Positions 2,054-36,875 of a DNA stretch of 36,932 nucleotides are shown in pieces. A program made the translations under genes and the position numbers. The notes under the pieces are model-generated. The model did no database searches. It saw nothing but the letters and a program-made list of their open reading frames with translations, and was not told the DNA's origin. Numbering within the stretch: position 1 is the stretch's first letter; every line of letters begins with the position of its first letter. The stretch covers positions 1 through 36,932 of IMG/VR virus record IMGVR_UViG_3300029258_000936, one strand, 5' to 3'. The stretch comes from a virus.

Positions 2054-2505
2054 ATTACTTAACAAACAAATACAACATGACCGATTTAATAAAAGATGAG
2101 ATATCAAAAAACTTCAAGCCAGTTGAGTATTTGAGAATCGAAGAAGCCTTATTTCAAGAAAGACAATACACAAAAGAGTATTCTGTTAGATATTTTGCTT
2201 TAACCCAAAGTAAAGACAAGGTTGTACACGAACATAAACGTCCTGTATTGAATGTTTTAATTCGTTTTACTGACAATACTGCTTTCAATATGACATTGTT
2301 GCCAGAAGATTATTTGGGAAAAGTTTACGAAAAAGAGAGCGAGGTTGTAGATTGGCTGCCGCATGGATTAGATGTTAATAATTCAATAGTAAACTTTGAA
2401 CGGAACTACGACTATGAAAAAGTATTGAACACAATAGTCTCAACCTTACAAGGAAAAAAACAGTACAACCCAACATTTGAAACACTTGATTTTATTACCA
2501 ACTAA
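2050..2505 (+). CDS. hypothetical phage protein, 151 aa
   Basis: Mixed alpha/beta soluble protein. It starts with ATG overlapping the upstream TGA. A second possible start at 2077 (MTDLIKDE) would remove nine residues. The body carries alternating hydrophobic strands (PVLNVLIRFTDNTAFNMTLLP) and a C-terminal aromatic stretch. The family is not recognised. It sits in the accessory block between the two terminase genes. Confidence 0.7.
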   Translation: MNYLTNKYNMTDLIKDEISKNFKPVEYLRIEEALFQERQYTKEYSVRYFALTQSKDKVVHEHKRPVLNVLIRFTDNTAFNMTLLPEDYLGKVYEKESEVVDWLPHGLDVNNSIVNFERNYDYEKVLNTIVSTLQGKKQYNPTFETLDFITN

Positions 2506-2517
2506 CCCATTAAACAT

Positions 2518-2994
2518 ATGAGTGAAGAAAAGAAAGAAATACTTGATGTATGTTGCGGTTCGAGAATGTTCTATTTCGACAAAGAAAACCCTAGTGTTTT
2601 GTTTTGTGATATTAGGGAGTTTGAAGATACTTTATGTGATGGACGAAAATTGGAAGTAAAGCCTGATGTCATTGCAGATTTTCGAGATCTACCATTTGAA
2701 GACAATATATTTTCATTAGTTGTTTTCGACCCACCACACATGAAAACACTTGGTAAAAACTCTTGGATGGCCAAGAAATATGGCGTATTAGGAGACACTT
2801 GGGAGGATGACATAAAACAAGGTTTTTCAGAATGTTTTAGGGTTTTGAAAGCTGGATCTGTACTTGTTTTCAAGTGGAACAGTGTTGAAATACCTGTATC
2901 GCAAATACTAAAACTCACGAACAAAAAACCGCTTCTCGGGCATAAAAGCGGGAAGCGACAAGACACACATTGGATTTTATTCATTAACCAATAA
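2518..2994 (+). CDS. SAM-dependent methyltransferase, DPPH type
   Basis: 158 residues, a minimal class I methyltransferase. Motif I is ILDVCCGSRMFYFD (about residues 8-21), the SAM-binding loop. CDIRE follows as the acidic end of beta2. The catalytic tetrapeptide DPPH is at residues 71-74 (DNA 2728-2739), the variant of the N6-adenine/N4-cytosine DPPY motif used by a group of small phage methyltransferases. There is no target-recognition domain, so the substrate (DNA base or other) cannot be told from sequence, and no restriction partner is nearby. Self-modification against host restriction is a reasonable inference. A 9-bp imperfect stem near the 3' end (about 2925-2955) lies inside the coding region. 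Confidence 0.8.
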   Translation: MSEEKKEILDVCCGSRMFYFDKENPSVLFCDIREFEDTLCDGRKLEVKPDVIADFRDLPFEDNIFSLVVFDPPHMKTLGKNSWMAKKYGVLGDTWEDDIKQGFSECFRVLKAGSVLVFKWNSVEIPVSQILKLTNKKPLLGHKSGKRQDTHWILFINQ

Positions 2995-2998
2995 CCCT

Positions 2999-3259
2999 AT
3001 GAAAACACCACAACAAGAGGAGATAGAAAAACTATATCAATCATATAAATGCGGAGATACAAATAGCGTTGTCTTGAGTGAGCTGATTTTCAAAACAATG
3101 TTGGAAAATGTTATCTCCCAAGCCCAACAACAAGCACAAGAGGAAACATTGAGTGAAGTCTTAAAGCATGAATATCTTGAAGCGGAAGGACACTACGCAG
3201 GAAGACATATTGTTTTAGTTGACGATATTAAAAAATTACAAGCCCTTAACAACAAGTAG
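2999..3259 (+). CDS. hypothetical phage protein, 86 aa
   Basis: Helical, Gln/Glu-rich protein with a central run of Ala/Gln (SQAQQQAQEE) suggesting a coiled coil, and a C-terminal HIVLVDDIKKL segment. It starts 5 nt after the methyltransferase stop with no Shine-Dalgarno sequence. No family assigned. Confidence 0.65.
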   Translation: MKTPQQEEIEKLYQSYKCGDTNSVVLSELIFKTMLENVISQAQQQAQEETLSEVLKHEYLEAEGHYAGRHIVLVDDIKKLQALNNK

Positions 3260-3274
3260 CCACCCCATCAGTCA

Positions 3275-3562
3275 ATGGTGTGGAATAAGATAGATGTTAT
3301 TATGAGACATTCAAAACAATCACATAAGGTTTATAAAATTACTTACGGAACTCTTCAGATAGAAGATGACTTACGGAAAAAAGCACCTAACGTTGAAATT
3401 TTAGACTGCTATTCAGTAAAAGTTTTAGCAACAGACGTTTTTGACGCTGTATTAAAAACAGAGGGATATGTTAAACAACTTGAAAAAGAGGAAAAGAAAG
3501 AAAGGTTTGAAGTATTTACACAAAGCATAGAATTATTAGAGGTTATTGATGTTGTTGGATAA
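3275..3562 (+). CDS. hypothetical phage protein, 95 aa
   Basis: Small, basic then acidic soluble protein. Starts at 3275 (MVWNKIDVIM) and at 3302 (MRHSKQSHKV) are both possible; neither has a Shine-Dalgarno. Predicted alternating strands and helices, with a charged Lys/Glu stretch around residues 70-80. No family assigned. Confidence 0.6.
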   Translation: MVWNKIDVIMRHSKQSHKVYKITYGTLQIEDDLRKKAPNVEILDCYSVKVLATDVFDAVLKTEGYVKQLEKEEKKERFEVFTQSIELLEVIDVVG

Positions 3563-4953: not shown

Positions 4954-5559
4954 ATGTTTGAACTAATAAAATTACACAACAAAACATCTCGCAATGTAAA
5001 GAAATGGTCTGAGATCGCTAAAACAGCAAAGGCTATGGTTAAGTGGCTTGATGATACTAACGGTGAGTTTAAAGGGCAACATAATTCTGCCTATGCTGTC
5101 CACCACACACAAGTCAGTGAAGAACCATACAATTTCTTTGTCGTGGCCGAGCAAATGTGTCAAAAGCCTGATGAGAAGAAAAACATTACAGAAGAAAACT
5201 ATGTATTTCCGGCACGCATCATAATCAATCCAAAGGTTGTAAAGAAAGAAAAGGTTTTGATGAGTAAAGAACCTAATAAGATAAAGAAGATTGACGAGGA
5301 GACAGGCAAAGAGTACGTTGATATTGAATGGAAAGATAAGGAAGTGAAGAATAAGATTACAGTCAAAGAAGGCTGTATGTCATTTCCACACCGTAAATCA
5401 AAGAATGTACAGAGGTACTACCGAGTTACTGTACGATATCAAATAAAGACATTGATTGGTCTCAAAGAGGTCGAGGAGACCATAGAAGGCGTGAAAGCAC
5501 ACATTTTCCAACATGAGTGTGATCATGCTAAAGGTAACAACATTTTTTATGACAAGTAA
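4954..5559 (+). CDS. def: divergent peptide deformylase
   Basis: Peptide deformylase removes the formyl group from the initiator Met of nascent proteins and uses a metal held by one Cys and two His. Motif 2, EGCMS, is at residues 139-143 (metal Cys141). Motif 3, HECDH, is at 187-191 (both metal His and catalytic Glu188). Motif 1 (GxGxAAxQ in the family) is degenerate here: HNSAYAVHHTQ around residues 43-53 keeps the Ala and Gln but has lost the glycines. A Lys/Glu-rich insertion (about 90-130) lengthens the usual 150-170 aa core to 201. Phage deformylases are known. The next gene starts inside its last codons. Confidence 0.82.
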   Translation: MFELIKLHNKTSRNVKKWSEIAKTAKAMVKWLDDTNGEFKGQHNSAYAVHHTQVSEEPYNFFVVAEQMCQKPDEKKNITEENYVFPARIIINPKVVKKEKVLMSKEPNKIKKIDEETGKEYVDIEWKDKEVKNKITVKEGCMSFPHRKSKNVQRYYRVTVRYQIKTLIGLKEVEETIEGVKAHIFQHECDHAKGNNIFYDK

Positions 5560-31334: not shown

Positions 31335-31721
31335 ATGAAAAAACGAGTAAAAAAGTACTTGAAAGGAGATGAGTTACTTGTTGAAAAATACGCCTCGCAA
31401 AAAGTCCGTGATGCCGTGTGGCAATTTGTTGTCGATCATGCACGAAGAAATAAAAATGGGCTGTATGTTTCTTTCGGAACAAGCTCAAAGCAGGACTTTT
31501 GGCTGCGTGTAGAGGGCCGTATTTTGGGCTATAAGCGTGTTTACGTTGATGAATTAGAGAAACACCTTAAAGAGGTTCATCACTACCACAAGAAGCTTAC
31601 TAAAGAGCCTAAGAGGATTGCTAAAATTAACTATAATATATGGAAAAAAGGTAGTAAAAAGCAAAAAATAGCTTTATGGATTTACAAAAAGTTGCATAAA
31701 TTTTTATATGAGAATAATTAA
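31335..31721 (+). CDS. basic hypothetical protein, 128 aa
   Basis: Lys-rich, with helix VDHARRNKNG and strand GLYVSFGTSSKQDFWLRVEGRILG in the middle and a Lys-rich helical end. A nucleic-acid-binding role is suggested by charge and by its place before RusA (overlapping by 14 nt), but no motif is diagnostic. It is read from its own leaderless promoter. Confidence 0.65.
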   Translation: MKKRVKKYLKGDELLVEKYASQKVRDAVWQFVVDHARRNKNGLYVSFGTSSKQDFWLRVEGRILGYKRVYVDELEKHLKEVHHYHKKLTKEPKRIAKINYNIWKKGSKKQKIALWIYKKLHKFLYENN

Positions 31722-32103
31722 AAAGACAATACCTATAACACCTGTATCAGCATCACGTCCGCGTGTGGCAAGAGGTCGTGTATTTTATAAAGAAGCGTAT
31801 GAGGAATTTCGCAATGACTTTGATAAATGGCTTACAACACAGAAACGTGATCAAATAACCGGAATGGTTGAGGTTTATCTTGAGTTTTATATAGCAATGC
31901 CAAAATCTTTTTCAAAGAAAAAAGCTAGTGAGCTAGACGGAGAATACTGTGATAAAAATCTTGATATTGATAATCTTGAAAAGGCTGTATATGACAAAAT
32001 AAGTAACTTTTTTATTGAAGATGATAGGTACATTGTACGCAATGCAAATGTAAAAAAATGGTCAAGCAATCCACGTATTGAAATGGAAATAAGCACTGTA
32101 TAG
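31708..32103 (+). CDS. rusA: RusA-type Holliday junction resolvase
   Basis: 131 residues. SRPRVARGRVFYKEAYEEF at the start matches the RusA N-terminal DNA-contact region, and KNLDIDNLEKAVYDKISNFF then EDDRYIVR gives the conserved acidic Mg2+ site (D, D, D/E pattern of RusA: DIDNL and DD). RusA homodimers cut four-way junctions. It overlaps the upstream gene, and the start of a repressed promoter region follows. Confidence 0.85.
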   Translation: MRIIKKTIPITPVSASRPRVARGRVFYKEAYEEFRNDFDKWLTTQKRDQITGMVEVYLEFYIAMPKSFSKKKASELDGEYCDKNLDIDNLEKAVYDKISNFFIEDDRYIVRNANVKKWSSNPRIEMEISTV

Positions 32104-32737: not shown

Positions 32738-33475
32738 ATGTCAGAGAGTAAACCTATTGTTGTTGAAATCAATAATGAGATCAATGCTCAGCTCAAAACA
32801 GAAGCAGTAAAAAGGGCATTACTTGCTACGACATTTAAGAAGTTTGACGACAAGTTAATGCGACAAGCACTTACTGAGGGAATGTTGCGCGGCTTTACGT
32901 TTAAAAATTTCTTGCAAAAAGATATCTACGCTATCAAATATGGCGACGGATATAGTCTCATGACATCTATTGATTATGCACGAAAAATAGGTATGAGAAA
33001 TAGTGTTGTTGGATCTTGTAAACCTGAGTATGAAACAGAAAAAGACGATGAAGGAAACAAAAAAATTATCTCATGTACTGTTACAGTCAAAAGAAAAATC
33101 GACGAATATGTCGGAGAATACACAGCTACAGTGTATTTTGATGAGTATTACAAGCCCGGCAAGACATGGAATGGTAAGTACACACCTAATTTATGGGATA
33201 CAAAACCACGAACAATGATCGCAAAAGTTGCAGAGATGCACGCACTGCGTAAAGCATGTCCTGAGGATCTATCTCAGATTTATGTTGAGGAAGAATTTGA
33301 AAAAGAAGCATACGTGGTCGAAGAAAAAGAAAATCGCTATCGTGAAGCAAACGATACTAGCGAATCATTAAAAATGGGTAACTTAGAACAAAAAGATGCC
33401 GACAAAAACAGCAAAAAAGCCAAAGAAGATAAAGCCAAAAATGACGCTGCCGAAAGTGAACAGGGTAGTGACTAA
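32738..33475 (+). CDS. RecT/Bet-like single-strand annealing protein
   Basis: 245 residues. Core motifs: KDIYAIKYGDGYSLMTSIDYARKIGMRN (about 58-90), and NLWDTKPRTMIAKVAEMHALRKACPEDL (about 148-178), the W..KPR.M..K.AE..ALR pattern of the Bet/RecT superfamily. It binds single-stranded DNA and anneals homologous strands. The C-terminal 50 residues are Lys/Glu-rich and disordered, and their code overlaps the start of the nuclease-FtsK gene. It is paired with a nuclease as in the lambda Red operon. The leader has the 17-bp repeat. Confidence 0.82.
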   Translation: MSESKPIVVEINNEINAQLKTEAVKRALLATTFKKFDDKLMRQALTEGMLRGFTFKNFLQKDIYAIKYGDGYSLMTSIDYARKIGMRNSVVGSCKPEYETEKDDEGNKKIISCTVTVKRKIDEYVGEYTATVYFDEYYKPGKTWNGKYTPNLWDTKPRTMIAKVAEMHALRKACPEDLSQIYVEEEFEKEAYVVEEKENRYREANDTSESLKMGNLEQKDADKNSKKAKEDKAKNDAAESEQGSD

Positions 33476-35393
33476 AGAAAAAGGTAAGTTTGCACTAGAT
33501 CATCTATCAGCATCGAGTCTTATCAAGTTTTCTACAAATCCTATTCTATTCAAAATGGAAGCGATGAACGGAGACTATGTTGATACGTTACAACGGTCAA
33601 GCGGCATTCTTGGAAAAGCATATCACCACGCACTATTTGTTTATTACGGAGGTTCTGATGAACATCCTGTATCGAATGAGTCAGAAGCAATCAAAGCAGG
33701 ACTTGAAGCAGGCACGCAATACGTTGAAAACTACAATGAAAATTTTATTGAGTTTACATCTACGTTGCCAAACAAGCAAAAGATTATTGAAAAAGTTGTA
33801 TTTCTATTTCAAGAATACGTAAAACAATATCCTTTTGATCCTAAAAGAGAAAAGATTGTAAGCCTTGAGGAGAGTTACAAAGAATTTATCTCTGTCGAAT
33901 GGAAAGGACAACATATCGTTTTACCTATCCCACTAAAGGCGCGTATCGACAAGATATACGATGATGAGGATCAAGAATTGTGCATTGAAGACTACAAATC
34001 AGTACACAGTTTCTCGAATCCTGACAAGATTGATGGAGCAAAGATCATACAGGCTATCGAGTATTACTTTATTGCGTATGCAGTATATGGAAGGCAACCA
34101 AAAAGTGCAGTAAACGGTGAAGCGGTATTTGTGCCTAATGTTAATGCCTTGTTTGATAACGAGGTTGCCATGATTGCATATATCCACCGCCTCGATGAAC
34201 CTGATGAAGTCGCAAAGGAAATGAAACGCTTGAAGGTCGAAAACATAACTGATCTTTTGAGGGAGAAATTACATAAATCATCATCTATCAAGATGTTTGA
34301 AAAAACCCTTGAGGAGAAGTTTAAAACTTATAAATCTATTGATTATTCTAAAATGAACATTGAAGAAAAAATACAAACAAAGCTCATGGAGTTCGGTATT
34401 CTCGTTAATTTCCATGAAAAGGTTGAGGGTCACTCAGTTACACAATATCGTTACAATCCGTCAATGGGTGTAAAGATGAAGACATTAAACAATCATGTTA
34501 AAGATATCGAGCAAATTACCGGAGTATCTGGTATCCGTATTCTTGCGCCAGTGCCAAACACTACATTTGTAGGTTTTGAAGTGCCAAAGAAAGAACGTAC
34601 TTTTGTTGAAGGAACACCTGAAACTAGCGGTTTTGACATTGCTATCGGAGTTGATCTCATGGGTGCAATACGTCGTTTTGACTTGCGAGAATCACCACAC
34701 ATGCTTATTGCAGGTGCTACAGGGTCAGGAAAATCTGTATTTGTGAACAGCTTAATAACACAGTTGCAACAGGTAAAGAACGCAGAGTTGCACTTATTTG
34801 ATCCAAAGCTTGTTGAGCTTGCCGTATACGAAGGAGGACAGCGCGTGAGAGAGTACGAAACGGACGCTGAGACGATTTACGACTCATTGCGGTCTCTTGT
34901 ATCGGAAATGAACAAAAGATACGACAGAATGAAAGATAAGGGGGTACGCAAGATATCAGACTATACAGGTCGCATGTCTTACAAGTTTGTCTTTATCGAC
35001 GAGTACGGAGATCTTATTGCTGCACAGCATGAGAAAAAAGAATGGGTAAATACTGGTGAGGTATACCAAATAGGAGAGAAAAAGGGTATGCCAAAGCAAA
35101 AACTTGAGGTAACGAATATCTCAAAAGAGATAGAACGTATGGTGCTACTTCTTGCACAAAAAGCAAGAGGTGCTGGTATTCACTTGATTATCTCGACACA
35201 ACGTCCGTCAGTAAACATCTTATCCGGTTCTATTAAAAATAATTTCCCTACAAAAGTAGCATTTCGTATGGCAAATACTACGGATAGTATTGTGGCCATT
35301 GATCAACCTGGAGCTGAGGCACTACTTGGAAAGGGAGATATGCTTTTTATTGCAGACAAAGGAGTCGAGCGTTTGCAGGGATATAACGTATAA
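33396..35393 (+). CDS. fusion of PD-(D/E)XK nuclease and FtsK/SpoIIIE DNA translocase
   Basis: 665 residues if the first ATG is used; another start at 33441 is possible, since the first overlaps the annealase by 80 nt. N-terminal RecB/Cas4-like nuclease: LSASSLIKF, H77-H78 (GKAYHHAL), D185 (ARIDKIYDD), D199-Y-K201 (EDYKS) and Q219-A-I-E-Y-Y223 (QAIEYYFIAY). Residues about 322-410 match the FtsK alpha/beta fold (FGILVNFHEKVEGHSVTQYRY, PSMGVKM, IRILAPVPNTTFVGFEVP). Walker A GATGSGKS is at 440-447, Walker B FIDEYGD with D535-E536, and ISTQRPSVNILSG near 605. No N-terminal membrane part and no gamma domain. I infer a nuclease moved along DNA by a hexameric motor. Confidence 0.85.
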   Translation: MPTKTAKKPKKIKPKMTLPKVNRVVTKEKGKFALDHLSASSLIKFSTNPILFKMEAMNGDYVDTLQRSSGILGKAYHHALFVYYGGSDEHPVSNESEAIKAGLEAGTQYVENYNENFIEFTSTLPNKQKIIEKVVFLFQEYVKQYPFDPKREKIVSLEESYKEFISVEWKGQHIVLPIPLKARIDKIYDDEDQELCIEDYKSVHSFSNPDKIDGAKIIQAIEYYFIAYAVYGRQPKSAVNGEAVFVPNVNALFDNEVAMIAYIHRLDEPDEVAKEMKRLKVENITDLLREKLHKSSSIKMFEKTLEEKFKTYKSIDYSKMNIEEKIQTKLMEFGILVNFHEKVEGHSVTQYRYNPSMGVKMKTLNNHVKDIEQITGVSGIRILAPVPNTTFVGFEVPKKERTFVEGTPETSGFDIAIGVDLMGAIRRFDLRESPHMLIAGATGSGKSVFVNSLITQLQQVKNAELHLFDPKLVELAVYEGGQRVREYETDAETIYDSLRSLVSEMNKRYDRMKDKGVRKISDYTGRMSYKFVFIDEYGDLIAAQHEKKEWVNTGEVYQIGEKKGMPKQKLEVTNISKEIERMVLLLAQKARGAGIHLIISTQRPSVNILSGSIKNNFPTKVAFRMANTTDSIVAIDQPGAEALLGKGDMLFIADKGVERLQGYNV

Positions 35394-35737: not shown

Positions 35738-36130
35738 ATGTCTCGTAGAATGTTTAAAAAATATGACGACACTCTTTATCAAAAGATGAAGAAAGAAAAA
35801 CGAACAATTCACAGGAGAAACTGGTTAGTAAAGAAAAACGGCACTTTATCGTCCGTTAGGTCACTTTCAGAGTTGTCGTCGTATAATTACTTTCTACAGA
35901 AACAAGAAAATTGTTGTGGTATATGTGGCAAAAAGCAAGTTGATGAGGTTAGAGATTTTGCTATAGACCATGACCATGATACAGGTATCGTCAGAGGATT
36001 ATTATGTTTTAAGTGTAATTCTGGTATTGCTTTATTGCAAGAAGACGTAGACATACTGAGATCAGCTATAAAATACCTTGAACTAGACGAATTTGTTATA
36101 AGGGTTAATAACCGATATAGGCATGAATAA
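35738..36130 (+). CDS. endonuclease VII-type HNH resolvase
   Basis: 130 residues: CCGICGKK (zinc Cys pair), DFAIDHDHDTGIVRGLLCFKCNSGIALL (His-Asp-His-Asp beta-beta-alpha metal site, then second Cys pair) and EDVDILRSAIKYL. This is the recombination endonuclease VII (T4 gp49) pattern. It cuts branched DNA and junctions during packaging. A second junction resolvase, RusA, is encoded at 31708. The last 8 nt overlap the replication initiator. Confidence 0.85.
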   Translation: MSRRMFKKYDDTLYQKMKKEKRTIHRRNWLVKKNGTLSSVRSLSELSSYNYFLQKQENCCGICGKKQVDEVRDFAIDHDHDTGIVRGLLCFKCNSGIALLQEDVDILRSAIKYLELDEFVIRVNNRYRHE

Positions 36131-36875
36131 TGGCTGGATAAAACTTCATAGACGGATACTTGAAAACCCTATTGTAAGAAAGCCGAAATATATAACATTG
36201 TGGATTGTGATTCTACTAAAAGCTAATCATAAAGAAAAAGAGATGATATGGAATAATGATGTTATAAGTGTTAAATCTGGTCAATTTATTACCGGAAGAA
36301 AAGAGCTATCTCGTGAGACAGGAATACCTGAGACAACAATCGAAAGAATACTAAAATTTCTAGAAAGTAGACACCAAATCAGACAACACAAAACTACTAA
36401 ATATCGTTTAATTACAATAGTTAATTGGCAAGAGTATCAAATTCTAGACACCAAAACGGACAACAAACGGACAACAAACGGACAACAAACGGACACAAAC
36501 AAGAATGATAATAAAGATAATAAAGAGAAGAAAGAAACGCCCCCTCATGCAAAATTGAGTTATCTTGATAATTTGCCCGAGGATCATCTCAATGAATTTC
36601 ATGTGAAGTACCACGCAAGCAAAGAGAAGATCAAAGAGAAGTCACACGATCTTGCTAATTGGTGTCGTAGTGAGGGTAAGAAAAAGAAGAATTACAGAGC
36701 CTTTTTGTTGAGAATTATGAATAAAGATTTTGAGAAAAGAGATCTTGATTCTTTGAAACGAATTATATTCTCTCGAGAAGAAGTGAAAGAAAACGGTACA
36801 GTTAAATTTAAAAATGTACCAAATGAGCTTTTTGAAGTCGCAAAAAAGCATAAGTTAATACAAAATAAATCATGA
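36123..36875 (+). CDS. winged-helix replication initiator
   Basis: 250 residues. GWIKLHRRILENPIVRKPKYITLWIVILLKANH at the start, and SGQFITGRKELSRETGIPETTIERILKFLESRHQI as a helix-turn-helix with wing: the N-terminal domain of phage replication initiators (DnaD/RepO-like). A low-complexity polar linker (residues 112-140) encodes the iterons, as in lambda gene O. The C-terminal half (150-250) is basic with DHLNEFHVKYHASKEKIK and a Lys-rich end. It should open the origin and load a helicase from the host, as no phage helicase is visible. Confidence 0.75.
   Translation: MNNGWIKLHRRILENPIVRKPKYITLWIVILLKANHKEKEMIWNNDVISVKSGQFITGRKELSRETGIPETTIERILKFLESRHQIRQHKTTKYRLITIVNWQEYQILDTKTDNKRTTNGQQTDTNKNDNKDNKEKKETPPHAKLSYLDNLPEDHLNEFHVKYHASKEKIKEKSHDLANWCRSEGKKKKNYRAFLLRIMNKDFEKRDLDSLKRIIFSREEVKENGTVKFKNVPNELFEVAKKHKLIQNKS
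36457..36537 (+). repeat. iterons and AT-rich stretch, candidate replication origin
   Basis: Three perfect copies of the 11-bp unit CGGACAACAAA at 36457-36467, 36468-36478 and 36479-36489, then CGGACACAAAC, followed by an A/T-rich run (36499-36537) with little GC. It is inside the initiator gene, the same organisation as lambda ori inside gene O, with a probable unwinding region immediately after. Confidence 0.6.

Follow-up and report, generated by a model that had tools for sequence, protein, structure and literature searches.

Outside of the locus described here, the 36,932-nt stretch that was analysed as a whole (IMG/VR record IMGVR_UViG_3300029258_000936, hereafter the window; a 36.9-kb contig) carries the terminase, portal and capsid genes of a tailed phage; it also encodes a peptide deformylase-like protein (4954-5559; PHROG 2890, Pfam Pep_deformylase). 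The features considered below are the following:

31708..32103, + strand: RusA-like Holliday junction resolvase, located upstream within this recombination region (Pfam RusA, 5.9e-24)
32738..33475, + strand: RecT/Bet-like single-strand annealing protein, 245 aa (Pfam RecT, 8.8e-16; PHROG, 2.9e-18)
33396..35393, + strand: nuclease-FtsK fusion gene, 665 aa (domain matches and 54 homologous records)
33396..33475, + strand: 80-nt overlap between the 3' end of recT and the 5' end of the fusion gene (ORF coordinates)
33495..34295, + strand: N-terminal RecB-type PD-(D/E)XK nuclease domain, incomplete in the window copy (PDDEXK_1, invariant residues, Foldseek)
34089..34109, + strand: junction where about 44 residues are absent (alignments with the other full-length members, models)
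34350..34586, + strand: FtsK alpha domain, residues 319-397 (Pfam, 3.5e-13; Foldseek and phmmer matches to FtsK motor structures)
34626..35390, + strand: FtsK/SpoIIIE beta (RecA-like) motor (Pfam, 2.3e-29; phmmer)
35738..36130, + strand: recombination endonuclease VII-like protein, downstream (Pfam Endonuclease_7, 3.3e-20)
36123..36875, + strand: DnaD-like helicase loader, downstream (PHROG 2514, 1e-35)

Two unlike junction-resolving nucleases, one RusA-like and the other endonuclease VII-like, lie on either side of RecT and the fusion in this small phage. The fusion gene reads as 665 codons in a single frame without interruption. Pfam recognizes in its product PDDEXK_1 (residues 36-281, 9.1e-8), FtsK_alpha (319-397) and FtsK_SpoIIIE (411-606), and matches neither a membrane nor a gamma domain, the motor forming the C-terminal end of the chain. 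The initial annotation of this DNA had proposed just such a polypeptide, i.e. a nuclease joined to a complete FtsK/SpoIIIE motor devoid of membrane and gamma domains and encoded after a RecT/Bet-like gene, and its description holds on each of these points. The residues that it named are all found at the positions it gave, with H77, D185, D199-Y-K201 and Q219 in the nuclease, GATGSGKS (440-447) and D535-E536 in the motor, and the gene directly upstream is the recT listed above. The overlap of the two genes suggests that they are translationally coupled. In the closest homologue, L021, a protein of 708 aa, the start codon of the fusion gene lies at the Met equivalent to that of the window protein.

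Beyond the window, the fusion is found in 54 records, of which 52 are IMG/VR contigs and the other 2 MAG contigs. These relatives were reached by a motif scan derived from an alignment that included phage and cellular FtsKs, with matches spanning the whole protein; scans based on an alignment of the nuclease only then added further contigs, including two from Patescibacteria MAGs, and a third MAG contig, whose size (35,898) and fusion match equal those of one IMG/VR contig, was counted once. Scans of IMG/VR and GTDB with a single sequence (the fusion protein P0001 or its nuclease) returned no relatives, because patterns chosen on a lone sequence differ from those that are conserved. As the same architecture recurs in all these records, a fusion by chance or by frameshift is rejected: the nuclease-FtsK fusion is neither fortuitous nor an artefact. 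The initial annotation had named a frameshift or an assembly error, or homologues always split and deprived of active nuclease residues, as findings that would overturn it; the family shows neither, since the fusion is common to the other 54 records, active residues are kept and no split homologue was found in the collections searched. A motor is present in 84 of the 85 ORFs that match the nuclease profile, the sole exception being truncated by a contig end. Candidates for a split or stand-alone form are the BFVD entries A0A8S5RDL0 (nuclease, 400 aa) and I4AZH2 and I4AZH4, which have neighbouring accessions and are nuclease-like and FtsK-like, respectively.

Both halves of the protein are strongly conserved. 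D199 and K201 are invariant (56 of 56 aligned rows), as are H77, E158 and D185 in all rows that cover them, and position 219 is Q in 54 of the 56 rows. PDDEXK_1 is matched by Pfam in 31 of 32 fusion members, and the FtsK alpha and beta domains in 32/32, with Walker A, Walker B and the TQRPS motif present; Walker A, Walker B and the sensor residues are found in every alignment row that reaches them. The motors of the fusion proteins group in a single clade (support 0.988), separate from the motor-only phage FtsKs and cellular FtsKs that were sampled. One clade and one change of architecture indicate that the fusion most likely arose once.

Several observations concern the distribution of these elements. 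Two loci (L100 and L101) carry the fusion and RecT on contigs binned as Patescibacteria, including Candidatus Collierbacteria, which is a possible hint to the host, although the bins may be wrong. The IMG/VR contig 3300035034_001119 (L050, L151 and L152) has parts of the fusion gene at both of its ends, and its map is probably circular. Among annotated phages, only stand-alone FtsKs were found and none bears a nuclease; the search for the fusion in plasmids gave none. INPHARED records matching the motor were left out as relatives, as those opened resemble ordinary cellular FtsK contigs. A cellular-type FtsK, most likely bacterial contamination, is found at loci L002-L009, which come from faecal "Bacteriophage sp." records and Staphylococcus phage SA 1306 Kay.

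The motor of the window protein (Walker A 440-447, Walker B 535-536, DNA loop II R603/K614) is related to that of Pseudomonas aeruginosa FtsK (phmmer against PDB, 1.6e-53, about 30% identity). The basic residues of loop II, R603 and K614, are retained in the window copy, whereas those of pore loop I of P. aeruginosa FtsK, K657 and R661, are replaced by T628 and I632. An AlphaFold2 model of the intact homologue L021 (mean pLDDT 84, pTM 0.50) was compared with known structures by Foldseek and aligns with FtsK motors along some 380-400 columns (E 1e-26); at this pTM the model does not fix how the nuclease is placed relative to the motor. The protein thus has an FtsK motor but, without membrane and gamma domains, is not an FtsK orthologue.

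RecT profiles detect RecT at 81 of the 85 fusion loci within the fetched DNA (some contigs being fetched more than once among these 85), versus 0/47 motor-only viral FtsK loci. The profile was trained in part on the first 30 loci and the contigs fetched later provide an independent confirmation. Pfam by itself names RecT in 30 of the 31 genes located immediately or closely upstream of the fusion gene, including that of the window. Two of the four loci without RecT (L050 and L152) are pieces of a contig whose other end, L151, has one, and a third (L148) is at a contig end. The fourth, L071, is the most divergent fusion locus; where RecT would be expected, it encodes a 376-aa protein (2373-3500) that receives no Pfam or NCBIfam name and looks by eye like a divergent annealase. 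At another locus, a gene located shortly upstream of RecT and the fusion (L032:861-2522) encodes what appears by eye to be a HerA-like ATPase, i.e. a second ATPase of the FtsK-HerA superfamily. The tie between the nuclease-FtsK fusion and an annealase, initially noticed at a single locus, is supported across the family.

This linkage bears on what the motor is for. The FtsK part might segregate, orient or resolve phage DNA (concatemers, entry, packaging), with a nuclease that cuts only occasionally, for example at junctions; such a role would be in keeping with that of cellular FtsK, with the motor-only FtsKs of many phages and with the RusA and endonuclease VII genes found close by. However, the absence of RecT from all 47 motor-only loci sets the context of the fusion apart from that of a DNA mover, the catalytic set of the nuclease is invariant and the phage encodes its own terminase, so that this explanation is considered very unlikely. 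The help in resolving or moving concatemeric DNA that had been suggested initially finds no support in this analysis.

The genes next to RecT in other phages point to another function. The RecT of the window is 53-56% identical to those of L010 and L011, which are followed in the same slot by a YqaJ exonuclease. By comparison, the window and L021 share 62% identity in their fusion proteins and only 21% in their RecTs, which belong to different subfamilies. These data imply that RecT proteins as well as the nucleases that accompany them have been swapped in and out of a single functional slot. Besides, none of the 44 other genes of the window that were scanned was recognized as another known recombination exonuclease. 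The YqaJ in the same slot, together with this lack of any other recognized exonuclease, speaks most strongly for the fusion doing the exonuclease job, and the production of single strands for RecT would fit both the strict RecT linkage and the YqaJ slot of relatives. It is thus proposed, with a probability of roughly 60%, that the members of the fusion family are motor-driven end-resection nucleases serving the phage RecT annealase.

The nuclease of the window itself calls for caution. Its signature is present as a whole (H77, E158, D185, D199-x-K201 and Q219, i.e. the H, E, D, D-x-K, Q set), but alignments show that it misses, after residue 231-237 or so, a block of about 44 residues (about 132 nt, in frame) that is kept by every other full-length member of the family. 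This block includes a near-invariant E-x-K (E in 52 of 54 members, K in 54/54) and, in the L021 model, corresponds to the last core strand (b4), which comes after the Q219 helix, and to the strand and helix that follow it. The complete PD-(D/E)XK core fold, with its strand following the Q helix, is therefore not found in the window copy, whose own model has a pLDDT below 50 at residues 238-270, the very place of the missing block. The block was searched elsewhere in the window and not found, and exact-DNA searches for an undeleted copy of this fusion gene gave no match.

For this particular phage, the odds are about even that the nuclease domain is broken, either through the loss of about 132 nt, which would leave the motor joined to a nuclease that no longer functions, or through a deletion introduced into the record by assembly. 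The block with the conserved E and K is absent from the window only and the confidence of the model drops at the gap; yet the frame is intact and E158, D185, D199, K201 and Q219 are all kept. This conservation makes a long neutral decay unlikely and leaves a recent deletion or an assembly error. If the deletion is real, the nuclease of the window is probably impaired, and since the domain is incomplete its activity should not be assumed from this copy. A broken nuclease would be limited to the window copy and is compatible with the resection role proposed for the family. In intact members, the RecB-type assignment is also that indicated by structure comparison: Dna2, the Cas4-family ACE1 and AdnAB appear lower in the Foldseek list of the L021 model, and we take them as hits to the predicted nuclease domain. 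Comparison of the nuclease profile with PDB sequences gave only weak, non-significant matches, two of them to AdnAB/UvrD-like chains.

The following model can be drawn for resection by these proteins. The alpha-beta part of FtsK is a hexamer from which DNA exits at the alpha ring (PMC7321959). By analogy, the alpha-beta part of the fusion protein would form a hexameric ring pumping double-stranded DNA and the nuclease, being attached at the N-terminal end of the motor, on its alpha side, would sit where the DNA emerges. The motor would then drive the DNA into the RecB-type nuclease fused to it, in the way that HerA supplies NurA (PMC12977600). The surviving single strand would be coated and annealed by RecT during phage recombination and replication, the fusion thereby substituting for the separate exonuclease of the YqaJ, RecE or lambda-exo type of other phages. 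The odds are about even for a more detailed version of this model, namely a single-chain HerA-NurA-like machine in which an FtsK ring pumps double-stranded DNA out at its alpha face and on to the RecB-type nuclease domains that it carries. This would be an ATP-driven replacement for the passive exonuclease of phage annealase systems, which originated in a single fusion and has been kept by a broad range of uncultured phages. The gap of the window copy, the pore-loop I basic residues that are not kept and the pTM of 0.50 count against the proposal.

The HerA-NurA analogy also has another side. In Thermococcus kodakarensis, HerA-NurA degrades both strands and leaves no 3' tails (PMC12977600), so that a motor-nuclease need not give single-stranded DNA. 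The motor could accordingly feed the nuclease in order to fully degrade host or competitor DNA, RecT only protecting or repairing the phage DNA. This would agree with the matches of the PADLOC models SspH and mad8 to the motor and with the occurrence of chains joining a nuclease to HerA/FtsK in defence. The strict recT linkage, with overlapping genes in the window and in many relatives, argues against it, as does the presence of YqaJ exonucleases in the same slot in phages with similar RecTs; moreover, no defence-system genes were recognized next to the fusion in the window. A DNA-destroying enzyme is hence considered unlikely. An identity with DndH or another defence protein is ruled out by the domain content, the PADLOC matches being confined to the motor.

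Resection for RecT by a motor-driven nuclease, the preferred reading, brings the fusion close to several known systems. The first is the module made of RecT or Red-beta and an exonuclease of the YqaJ, DUF3799/RecE or lambda-exo type, in which a PD-(D/E)XK nuclease gene directly follows the RecT gene; in a survey of Firmicutes, YqaJ, DUF3799 and beta-lactamase-fold genes were common neighbours of RecT (PMC8093625). The fusion loci have the defining arrangement of these modules, an annealase gene adjoining a nuclease gene, but their nuclease is RecB/Cas4-like (PDDEXK_1) rather than YqaJ or DUF3799 and is joined to an ATP-driven double-stranded DNA motor. Cellular FtsK/SpoIIIE resemble the fusion in having the alpha and beta domains of the motor, with an identity of about 30%, whereas they carry membrane and gamma domains and the fusion has a nuclease in place of their N-terminal domain. 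RecBCD, AddAB, AdnAB and Dna2, like the fusion, combine a motor with a RecB-family nuclease at DNA ends, but their motors differ from its FtsK-type double-stranded DNA pump, as they are SF1 helicases that unwind DNA.

HerA is not known to possess an FtsK alpha domain, nor NurA to be a nuclease of the PD-(D/E)XK type. Archaeal and bacterial HerA-NurA resemble the fusion by analogy, with a ring of the FtsK-HerA superfamily and a nuclease at the side where DNA exits (PMC12977600), but they are two separate proteins unlinked to RecT, whereas the fusion is a single chain with an FtsK alpha domain. DndH (from the anti-invader system DndFGH) and other HerA/FtsK-capture proteins unite in one chain a restriction-fold nuclease and, behind it, a HerA/FtsK ATPase, and some of them share the FtsK alpha domain with the fusion (PMC10853773). 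DndH differs in being about 1700 aa long, with several further domains and a type II-like restriction endonuclease, and in acting in defence with DndF and DndG, the fusion being a 665-aa protein in a phage RecT context.

The initial annotation knew of no described example, which holds in part. In the open literature searched, no description of a RecT-linked nuclease-FtsK fusion was found, but chains uniting a nuclease and FtsK/HerA are known, and the only described ones found belong to defence, as does DndH (PMC10853773). What is new is therefore, by type, an annealase-nuclease module whose nuclease bears its own FtsK pump, the described phage annealase partners found being stand-alone nucleases. 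The fusion permits a direct test of a double-stranded DNA pump feeding a RecB-type nuclease. If powered by its motor, it could account for end resection over long distances, a compact nuclease-annealase pair for recombineering might follow, and the protein would be, in one polypeptide, a phage-invented FtsK-based counterpart of RecBCD/AddAB or HerA-NurA.
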